A stretch of DNA of 45,890 nucleotides from Anaerolineae bacterium (GTDB lineage Bacteria > Chloroflexota > Anaerolineae > Fen-1058): contig PMCF01000420.1 of the NCBI GenBank assembly GCA_003154115.1, positions 1-45,890 on the forward strand. Reading direction: 5' to 3'. Positions 28,856 through 37,264 of this stretch are shown piece after piece. How positions within the stretch are numbered: the first letter of the stretch is position 1; each line of letters begins with the position of its first letter. The position numbers and the translations under genes were made by a program. The notes under the pieces were generated by a model that worked only from the letters and a program-made list of their open reading frames with translations, searched no databases and was not told the origin of the DNA.

Positions 28856-28970
28856 CTCATCTTGGTCTTCTCCCTTCCCGTGTCCGTGGTAGCGGCGGGA
28901 CGGTTGGCCGCGAAGGGAGAAGATTAAGATGCGCTCCCTCGCCCTGTTAGGGAGAGGGTTGGGGTGAGGG
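28856..28970. repeat. Intergenic REP-like dyad (CCCTCACCCC...CTCTCCC family)
   Basis: catcttggtcttctccctt / aagggagaagattaagatg imperfect IR; gggagagggttggggtgaggg. Confidence 0.6.
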
Positions 28971-28974
28971 TCTA

Positions 28975-29453: not shown

Positions 29454-29524
29454 GGACGCGGATTCACGCGGATTTTCGCGGATACGAAGGAAATATCGGC
29501 GTTCATCGGCGTTCATCTGCGTCC
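29454..29524. mobile_element. Short gene-less element: three 10-bp iterons, 11-bp spacer, three inverted iterons
   Basis: GGACGCGGAT TCACGCGGAT TTTCGCGGAT - acgaaggaaat - ATCGGCGTTC ATCGGCGTTC ATCTGCGTCC. Confidence 0.75.
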
Positions 29525-29534
29525 CCAAAATCAT

Positions 29535-34942: not shown

Positions 34943-35644
34943 CTAAAGTGGCATACTGACTTGCAACCAGCGGGTATCGACGCTTTGTTCGCGTGCGCTG
35001 ACCGCTACCACCAAAATGCTGATGTCATCGGCCGGGCGCTGCTGATCGGCGGTTAGGGCCTGCTGCAAGAGCGCCTGCGCCAGATCATGGGCGTTCAGCT
35101 GCTGCCCGATCAGCTCACGCACCAACTCCGGCACATTCAGCGGTTGGCCGGTGCGCTCACCTGCGGCGGAAAGTCCGTCGGTGAATATTACCACAGTTAT
35201 CCCCGGCGCGAGAGGCAGCTCATGGATGATGGGTTTGGTGCCCCGGTGCACCCCGACGGGCTGCGACGGCTCGTCGAATACTTGAAGTTGACCGTTTTGG
35301 CCCACCAGCGTGGGGCAATGGTTATTGCGCGACAACACCAGCGTCTTCGATTCCAGATCGACCGAGACGATATTGAGCGTGGCCGAGACCTTGCCCGAGC
35401 GGTGCGTGTACAGGTAATCGTGCGCGGCGCGGGCGGCCGCGCCATCGCGTACCCCCTCGGCCAGCAGGGTGAGGGCCTTGCGTGCCACCATATTACTGAT
35501 GGCCTTGGCGCTCTTGCCCGAACGCTGCCCGTCCACCACGATGAATGACAATCCTCCGCCGGGGCGCTCGATCATCTCGACCGTATCGCCGCTTTCCGGC
35601 GTGGCATATTTGCGAGTCTTCGCAACGGCGACGTCTAAGTGCAT
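34943..35644 (-). CDS. SpoIIE/PP2C-type serine phosphatase
   Basis: FIVVDGQRSGKSAKAISNMV, VVIFTDGLSAAGE, PADDISILVVAV. Confidence 0.85.
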   Translation of the reverse strand: MHLDVAVAKTRKYATPESGDTVEMIERPGGGLSFIVVDGQRSGKSAKAISNMVARKALTLLAEGVRDGAAARAAHDYLYTHRSGKVSATLNIVSVDLESKTLVLSRNNHCPTLVGQNGQLQVFDEPSQPVGVHRGTKPIIHELPLAPGITVVIFTDGLSAAGERTGQPLNVPELVRELIGQQLNAHDLAQALLQQALTADQQRPADDISILVVAVSAREQSVDTRWLQVSMPL

Positions 35645-35650
35645 GTTATG

Positions 35651-36167
35651 GGACACGGATAAATACGGATGCACACGGATTTTTATTGGTTTGTTGCTTG
35701 GCCGGGATTAGTCCAAGTCAAAGTACCTTTAAGTTCGTTGTCGTACACCTTGCGCCGATACTCGGCCTTTGGCCCAAAGTTCAACAGCAAGCCCACTTCT
35801 ATGGTCGTTGCCTTGAGGTAGTTGAGTAACTGGGCTTCGTGCTCGTCAAGCAAATGGCGTACTGCCTTCAGCTCGAGAATGACTGTGCCGTTCACCAGAA
35901 TATCAGCGAAATAGTCGCCGACATTATACTCTTCATAGTAGACCGTTATGCTCTTCTGTTGTTCGACCTGTAACCCCAACTTCCGCAGTTCGATCGCCAA
36001 CGAGTTTTCATAGACCTTTTCGGCAAACCCATACCCTAATGTGTTATAAACTTTGAAGAATGCTCCGATGACCTTTTCAGTCACTGCGGAATGCTTGCCT
36101 TCGAACATGAAATTCCTCCTGAAATCAACGATTAAAAATCCGTGTTTATCCGTGTGTATCCGTGTCC
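35651..36167. mobile_element. 517-bp GxxExxY cassette bounded by inverted triple 10-bp iterons
   Basis: Left GGACACGGAT AAATACGGAT GCACACGGAT; right end (revcomp) GGACACGGAT ACACACGGAT AAACACGGAT; both followed inward by TTTTA. Confidence 0.8.
35683..36108 (-). CDS. GxxExxY family protein (PDDEXK-like)
   Basis: VIGAFFKVYNTLGYGFAEKVYENSLAIELRKLGL...VGDYFADILVNGTVILELKAV. Confidence 0.9.
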   Translation of the reverse strand: MFEGKHSAVTEKVIGAFFKVYNTLGYGFAEKVYENSLAIELRKLGLQVEQQKSITVYYEEYNVGDYFADILVNGTVILELKAVRHLLDEHEAQLLNYLKATTIEVGLLLNFGPKAEYRRKVYDNELKGTLTWTNPGQATNQ

Positions 36168-37264
36168 AATACTTCTTGGTGTTCCGTGAACTTATTTAGC
36201 GCCGTCTCGTTCACGGTCACGCCCAGGCCCGGCGTCGTCGGCACGGTCAACGTCGAATCGGGATTGAGCGCAAACAGCGGTTCGGCGATGTCCTCCGCGT
36301 AGTAGCGATTGCTGGCGCTGATGTCGCCGGGCAGAGTGAAGTTGGGCAGGGAGGCCAACGCCACATTGCCCGCCCGCCCGATGCCCGTTTCCAGCATACC
36401 GCCGCACCACACCGGCAGGCCGCGCGCCTGGCAGAGATCGTGGATGCGGCGCGATTCAGTGAAGCCGCTCACTCGCGCCGGCTTGATGTTAATGATCTGG
36501 CACGCGCCCAGATCGATTGCTGTCACGGCATGGCCCAGCGAATGAATGGATTCGTCCAAACAAACGGGCGTGTCGAGCAGCGGTTGAAGCTTCGAGTGCT
36601 CGTAGATGTCGTCCCAGCCAAACGGCTGCTCGATGAGCAGCAACTTGACCTCGTCCATTGCCTCAAACAAGGGCGCATCCGGCAGATGATAGGCCGAGTT
36701 CGCATCGACTTGCAGCAGAATCCTGGGGAACCTGGCGCGCACGCGCTTCACGATGTCCAGATCGTAACCCGGCTTGATTTTGATCTTGATGCGACCGTAG
36801 CCTTGTGAAAGATAACTCTCGATCTTGGCGATGAGCGCCTCGGCGGATGACTGAATGCCGATGCTGACGCCGACCGCGACTCGATCACGTGTGCCGCCCA
36901 ACGCCTTCGAAAGCGAGATACCCTGCTGCTGCGCGACGATGTCCCACAGCGCCGATTCCAGACCATGCCGCGCCATGTTGTGCCCGCGCAGATGTTCACC
37001 CAGTTCGAACGTCGCGGCAATATCAACCGGCTTGCCCAGCGCATGCGGAATGAGGAAATCTTTCAGGGCGTGCCACACCGTCGTCGTCGTTTCGTACGAA
37101 TAGCCGAAACTGTGCGACGCCGGGCACTCGCCCCAGCCGGTGAGTCCGTCGGCGTCCACGCGCACGATGACGCACTGCCGATCTTGCTCCACGCCGAAGG
37201 AAGTCTCAAACGGCGCGGTGAGGCGCATGTTGACGAGGAAGAGAGTGATGCGATCGATGGTCAT
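36146..37264 (-). CDS. menC: Enolase-superfamily o-succinylbenzoate synthase / N-succinylamino acid racemase-like
   Basis: IKIKIKPGYDLDIVKRVR, LQVDANSAY, LLIEQPFGWDD, VCLDESI, INIKPARVSGF, GGMLETGIGRA. Confidence 0.85.
   Translation of the reverse strand: MTIDRITLFLVNMRLTAPFETSFGVEQDRQCVIVRVDADGLTGWGECPASHSFGYSYETTTTVWHALKDFLIPHALGKPVDIAATFELGEHLRGHNMARHGLESALWDIVAQQQGISLSKALGGTRDRVAVGVSIGIQSSAEALIAKIESYLSQGYGRIKIKIKPGYDLDIVKRVRARFPRILLQVDANSAYHLPDAPLFEAMDEVKLLLIEQPFGWDDIYEHSKLQPLLDTPVCLDESIHSLGHAVTAIDLGACQIINIKPARVSGFTESRRIHDLCQARGLPVWCGGMLETGIGRAGNVALASLPNFTLPGDISASNRYYAEDIAEPLFALNPDSTLTVPTTPGLGVTVNETALNKFTEHQEVLDTDTHG

Follow-up and report, generated by a model that had tools for sequence, protein, structure and literature searches.

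The GxxExxY gene of the Anaerolineae genome studied here (G000) sits between two inverted arrays of short iterons, and the same arrangement recurs around GxxExxY genes in many phyla. From the sequence comparisons, we consider it reasonably probable that these units are widespread minimal selfish or mobile elements in which the GxxExxY nuclease binds and cuts iterons of its own type, while the unit is copied or moved. The iteron-armed GxxExxY family has apparently gone undescribed so far. The open-access literature on GxxExxY, PF13366 and TIGR04256 describes no such element and assigns no function to GxxExxY genes, and an earlier description elsewhere is possible.

The window, that is the whole stretch of 45,890 nucleotides that was analysed, contains the following features.

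35651 to 36167, minus strand: the whole element, 517 bp from outer end to outer end, delimited by the inverted iteron arrays at both ends and by the menC–phosphatase interval of G002 and G004, which is without the element
35651 to 35680, plus strand: left iteron array GGACACGGAT AAATACGGAT GCACACGGAT
36138 to 36167, minus strand: right iteron array ATCCGTGTTT ATCCGTGTGT ATCCGTGTCC, which is the reverse complement of GGACACGGAT ACACACGGAT AAACACGGAT
35683 to 36108, minus strand: GxxExxY gene, 141 amino acids, predicted PD-(D/E)XK fold
36146 to 36172, minus strand: final codons of the menC-like gene with its stop (VLDTDTHG-stop), read through the right iterons
29456 to 29528, no strand assigned: second iteron palindrome of the same family, gene-less, GGACGCGGAT TCACGCGGAT TTTCGCGGAT ... 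ATCGGCGTTC ATCGGCGTTC ATCTGCGTCC

Each arm of the focal element consists of three 10-bp iterons, inverted with respect to the other end, with TTTTTA on the inward side of both arrays, and together the arms form a 45-nt inverted repeat that is 84% complementary. The two-unit pattern ATCCGTGTNNATCCGTGT, with at most three mismatches, has six matches in the window while 0.36 are expected, and none of 100 shuffles reaches six, which excludes chance as the origin of these iterons. Four of the six matches are the focal arms and the other two belong to the gene-less palindrome, which is missing from the sequence-only reading of this DNA. That reading had placed inverted arrays of three 10-bp units at either end of a single GxxExxY gene, and they lie at the coordinates it gave. 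It was also right about both junctions: the left end is separated by 6 bp from the ATG of the phosphatase gene (A at 35644), and the right iterons provide the last codons and the stop of the menC-like gene (VLDTDTHG-stop at 36146). In G004, which is without the element, translation of the menC-like gene ends in ALEKYTLQSEKFTA-stop. A consensus scan detects no promoter or terminator inside the element, and the ATG of the GxxExxY gene is directly preceded by a Shine–Dalgarno-like AGGAGG. Elsewhere in the window, a further dispersed repeat at positions 28868 to 28973 (CTCCCTCGCCCTGTTAGGGAGAGGGTTGGGGTGAGGG together with its neighbour) has about 30 matching places in four related genomes.

Tandem sites spaced by one helical turn beside a gene are typical of operators, and the focal iterons are arranged in this way. 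That they serve only as operators through which an immobile gene regulates itself is nevertheless extremely improbable, given that the gene also has matching arrays at its other end, that solo copies exist without a gene and that orthologous sites exist without the element.

The focal open reading frame matches PF13366 with 142.7 bits (cut-off 22, E = 8e-42) and TIGR04256 with 139.1 bits (cut-off 35, E = 8e-41). In a Pfam search PF13366 is its sole match, and the element contains no DDE transposase, Y1/HUH or PF05635 domain. The protein carries G27xxE30xxY33, D69, E79, K81 and Q93xxxY97. In an alignment of 27 sequences, Asp69, Lys81 and Tyr97 are invariant and Glu79 and Gln93 nearly so, while G27xxE30xxY33, Asn110 and Arg119 are likewise invariant or nearly so. 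No sequence relative is found in the PDB. The AlphaFold2 model (pLDDT 91, pTM 0.84) finds its best Foldseek matches in Cas4 SSO0001, LHK-Exo, lambda exonuclease and the Cas4-like ACE1, with high probability and modest TM-scores of 0.35–0.53 by query length. The protein is thus predicted from the model to be a PD-(D/E)XK enzyme of the Cas4/RecB/lambda-exonuclease type with its catalytic residues intact. The copies in G000 and in the same-genus genome G001 are under purifying selection (pN 0.20, pS 0.77). A defence or phage function was considered and rejected, as there is no convincing PADLOC or PHROG match; among the PADLOC defence families no known family is matched and the best hit has an E-value of 0.024 over 40 residues.

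The genome G000 (7.7 Mb in 460 contigs, 96% complete, 8.5% contaminated) contains ten PF13366 matches, and several of its other GxxExxY loci have inverted arrays of other units (ATTCGCG, ATCTGTG and ATTCGTG). A scan of GTDB genomes retrieved 29 relatives, from Chloroflexota, Bacteroidota, Planctomycetota, Neomarinimicrobia, Pseudomonadota, Nitrospirota, Verrucomicrobiota, other phyla and one archaeon, most of them with inverted arrays of a locus-specific unit beside the gene. Within a locus the left and right arms match; between loci the repeat sequence differs, with for example an ATCCGTG type in the window and a CTCTGCG type in G130. To score arms blindly, the reverse complement of the left 300 bp was aligned with the right 300 bp. 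Medians for three sets of GxxExxY loci are 17.5–21.5, with 62–78% of loci at 16 or above, while 92 control ORFs from the same loci have medians of 9–10 with none at 16 or above, and cross-locus pairs give 9–9.5. In all, 67% of 110 GxxExxY loci from many phyla reach an arm score that no control ORF reaches; these loci are a non-random sample in which the best profile matches were taken first. About a third of the 110 are without strong arms by alignment score, and arms were not seen on reading at L037, L044 (archaeal) and L052. At least two TYNGYG motifs are present in both arms at 69 of 84 armed loci and in none of the shuffled arms. The co-occurrence of iterons with GxxExxY genes that the sequence-only reading called for is therefore found in many genomes and phyla, and its 10-bp period holds across the family as 9–10 bp. 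Among 150 genomes sampled from the class, 98 carry GxxExxY, often in several copies. By simple ORF calls at 23 loci, both neighbours are co-directional with the gene at 15 and both opposite at one, and the median distance from the end of the upstream gene to the GxxExxY ORF is 88 bp.

The same architecture surrounds an unrelated protein. S23 (PF05635), the four-helix-bundle protein encoded in 23S rRNA intervening sequences (IVS), was included as a control family, and 80% of 30 S23 loci lie at or above the arm score. The S23 loci (L162–L191 and L308–L312), in Chloroflexota and on cyanobacterial plasmids, have inverted arrays of 7-bp locus-specific units. On plasmids the architecture is present at five of six loci, including those of Nostoc, Anabaena, Pseudanabaena and Geminocystis, and the flanks of an Azospirillum copy read by eye as 23S rRNA. 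On two of the cyanobacterial plasmids (L308 and L310) the S23 gene is found in a CRISPR operon, with cas6 on one side and cas4 on the other. In common with GxxExxY elements, S23 IVS and the heptamer repeats have a single small gene between inverted short tandem-repeat arrays, a repeat sequence that is specific to the locus, a patchy distribution and several copies per genome; the differences are an unrelated, non-nuclease protein and a period of 7 bp instead of 9–10 bp. GxxExxY elements possibly belong to a wider, general element type shared with S23. S23 elements may also explain the cyanobacterial heptamer (STRR-type) repeats, in the open-access descriptions of which S23 is not mentioned. 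Since S23 is non-enzymatic and has the same architecture, an iteron-armed architecture does not by itself need a nuclease.

Within the arms, the 8-bp core of the iteron is ACRCRGAT at the focal element and generally nTYNGYG on the other strand, repeated about once per helical turn with two free bases between cores. Among 51 elements with 36 spacer pairs, some overlapping loci included, the variable core positions agree between mirrored units in 84% of cases (51% when shuffled), with an almost equally high figure (78%) for non-mirrored units. Mirrored spacers agree in 22% of cases, compared with 32% when shuffled. A selected stem would mirror its spacers, and this favours protein binding over hairpin pairing; an 8-bp core that is read by a protein once per turn, the reading that we favour from these sequences, would not need mirrored spacers. 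That the arms are there to form a hairpin or an RNA stem is rejected on these grounds, and the focal element has no match in Rfam. An element that acts at the level of RNA, the arms forming a transcript stem as in rRNA IVS so that the insert is cut out by RNase III or tolerated and the DNA repeats are incidental, would fit the focal transcript, which folds far better than its shuffles (z = −4.5), and the fact that S23-encoding IVS in 23S rRNA are cut by RNase III (PMC4990558). The lack of agreement between mirrored 2-bp spacers and the similar sharing of variants by non-mirrored units make it distinctly improbable.

Iteron type follows the protein. On a tree of 103 proteins, with the arms of 76 loci assigned to six types, iteron type changes 16 times, compared with 39.6 ± 1.9 times in full shuffles and 29.6 ± 2.5 times when types are shuffled within genomes, where none of 300 shuffles reaches 16. 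A Mantel comparison of protein identity with arm similarity gives rho = 0.43, and 0.26 for within-genome pairs (p = 0.02). The two tests agree, so the arms are passed on with their gene, whatever the host. Such co-inheritance is a prediction of element-specific recognition and equally one of whole-unit copying. The earlier proposal that the nuclease recognises its own iterons thus gains indirect support from co-inheritance and from the iteron grammar, while the S23 elements, with a non-nuclease in the same architecture, weigh against it. Recognition of the iterons by the nuclease would still be the best-supported mechanism.

Occupied and empty versions of a site, which the sequence-only reading had suggested looking for, are found at four independent loci, at each of which one species carries the element and relatives have no GxxExxY gene. 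At the focal site, the interval between the menC-like and phosphatase genes is occupied by the element in G001 as well, while G002 and G004, from the same family, have a 115-bp spacer alone. This spacer holds a palindrome with a 7-bp period (CGTGTTG CGTGATA CGTATTG CGTGATG ... CACGCAG CACGCAC CACG), so that the site is free of GxxExxY yet is not a virgin site. The same intergenic spot (L102 and L103, orthologous to positions 35645 to 36210 of the window) is used both by GxxExxY elements and by elements of the S23 type with their 7-bp period. Between radA and a FAD gene the element is present in B. finegoldii and the site is empty in Parabacteroides distasonis; between fabD and fabG it is present in Sphingomonas parapaucimobilis and the site is empty in S. 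paeninsulae and Sinorhizobium. At the fourth locus G081 is occupied and its congener G154 empty, and G141 and G155 retain a decayed iteron array without the gene. The empty sites of G154, Parabacteroides and Sphingomonas contain no iterons. The occupied and empty sites that were compared are about 70–87% identical, and their junction positions are approximate. At fabD–fabG and at radA, gain would be a simpler reading of these sequences than loss because the genes are adjacent in relatives. Together with the recurrence of the arms, these pairs give good support to the earlier description of a minimal mobile or selfish unit.

Silent sites diverge more in the GxxExxY copies of G000 and G001 (L104), with pS 0.77, than in the menC-like gene that flanks them (0.52); replacement, conversion and fast evolution are candidate explanations of the difference. 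Independent insertion in the two genomes, suggested by the maximum-likelihood tree and by pS, is rejected because an AU test does not exclude that the copies are sisters (p = 0.42). With this result and with element junctions that on reading agree within a few bases, a shared insertion is no less likely. The excess of silent differences would also fit a model in which the nuclease cuts solo palindromes that are then converted by repair from a gene-bearing copy, new sites being reached by another route. Such homing is further consistent with the gene-less decayed arrays of G141 and G155 at the G081 site and with the complete palindrome found on each side of several gene-bearing copies (L025, L027, L032 and L287). 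Empty sites without iterons imply that elements are also gained at, or lost from, plain sites, and the sisterhood left standing by the AU test speaks against homing as well; we regard it as unlikely.

Gene-less palindromes are dispersed widely. A three-unit iteron pattern occurs at 13 places in G000 and its reversed control at none, and palindromes ending in GGACACGGAT...ATCCGTGTCC are found without a gene elsewhere in G000 and in G001. Across the 150 class genomes the pattern ATCYGYGNNNATCYGYGTCC has 686 matches, while the reversed control has none in any genome. With kinship ignored, solo iteron counts correlate with GxxExxY copy number (Spearman 0.43, 150 genomes) and their presence with that of GxxExxY (odds ratio 3.7, p = 8e-4), and in four of four genomes examined the commonest solo variant of the unit is that of a gene-bearing copy in the same genome. 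Solo elements are 54–130 bp long, mostly about 70 bp. Target-site duplications, which were also on the list of the sequence-only reading, left no clear signal: in 33 solo palindromes there is no excess at 3–10 bp and a slight one at 2 bp (five, with 2.0 expected). Of the 56 genomes that carry solo iterons, ten have no detected GxxExxY gene, including G079 (97% complete, 20 matches) and G149. In the latter (L192–L204) the iteron palindrome is central in a dispersed repeat of about 130 bp.

Y1_Tnp genes are present in 110 of the 150 class genomes, and the size and palindromic layout of the elements resemble REPINs. It could be argued from this that RAYT (Y1/HUH) transposases move these palindromes as ordinary REPINs and that GxxExxY was captured. 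With GxxExxY held constant, however, iteron counts have a partial rank correlation of 0.07 with Y1, compared with 0.36 for GxxExxY when Y1 is held constant, and eight Y1-less genomes carry iterons. The outer ends are of the GGAC or GCCAC/GCGG types and not the GTAG/CGTC tags of REPs (PMC3733652). We rejected RAYT as the mobiliser once GxxExxY was accounted for, and only a very slight chance is left for REPINs of this origin.

A more serious alternative is that host processes, such as template switching or recombination between palindromes, or another enzyme copy the unit, and that GxxExxY is a passenger or helper that is otherwise beneficial or only stabilises the element. In its favour, S23 elements are built in the same way and enclose a non-enzymatic four-helix bundle, some genomes in which no GxxExxY was detected carry solo palindromes, the iterons of G149 lie inside a larger repeat, and copying of whole units by other machinery would also lead to co-inheritance of arms and gene. 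The tracking of the protein tree by iteron type even within genomes and the conservation of the catalytic residues are not readily explained in this way, and solo counts track GxxExxY copy number; we therefore hold a passenger role to be possible but rather doubtful.

We favour instead an active role of the GxxExxY protein itself. Most likely, this protein binds both ends of the unit through iterons of its own type, and the bound enzyme would then cut or nick the DNA at the iterons. The unit would subsequently be copied or moved into the intergenic spaces of operons, by transposition or by homing and without target-site duplication. Insertion mostly co-directional with host transcription would allow the gene, which has a ribosome-binding site but apparently no promoter of its own, to be read from the host operon. 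The gene-less palindromes are probably non-autonomous derivatives or targets, related to GxxExxY as REPINs are to RAYTs.

The elements are REPIN-like in behaviour and fall outside the REPIN/RAYT family. Both are short intergenic palindromes of inverted units with many non-autonomous copies, no detected target-site duplication and one associated small gene that is flanked by the same repeats. RAYT, however, is an HUH tyrosine transposase and GxxExxY a predicted Cas4-like PD-(D/E)XK protein, the GxxExxY palindromes are arrays of 9–10-bp iterons whose type varies by locus within a genome, and their outer tag is a different one. From classical IS and MITEs of the DDE type they differ by solo copies without duplications and by an element without a DDE transposase. 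With Cas4, lambda exonuclease and RecB nucleases the protein shares the predicted fold and the D..ExK and QxxxY motifs; unlike these it is a short single-domain protein with no sequence relative in the PDB, and the focal gene is not located beside CRISPR or recombination genes. Homing endonuclease genes of the PD-(D/E)XK type exist, for example I-Ssp6803I, and are likewise small selfish nuclease genes with presence/absence polymorphism. GxxExxY, in contrast, is inserted between genes, without intron or intein and with its own repeated arms, and its empty sites exist without a recognisable target sequence.

Taken more broadly, the elements may constitute a new minimal class of mobile elements, present in many phyla, in which a Cas4-like PD-(D/E)XK protein recognises the arms of its own unit, which co-evolve with it, and spreads palindromes with and without the gene. 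With S23 and the IVS they would form a general iteron-armed type that is the source of many unexplained 7-bp and 10-bp intergenic repeats; for this wider proposal we consider the chances to be even. If it is true, the orphan GxxExxY family would gain a role as the protein of a selfish element and a large group of intergenic repeats would gain an origin. Dozens of natural protein–iteron pairs would become available for studying how a small Cas4-like nuclease chooses its DNA. The S23 parallel ties two old puzzles, the rRNA intervening sequences and the cyanobacterial heptamer repeats, to the same architecture.
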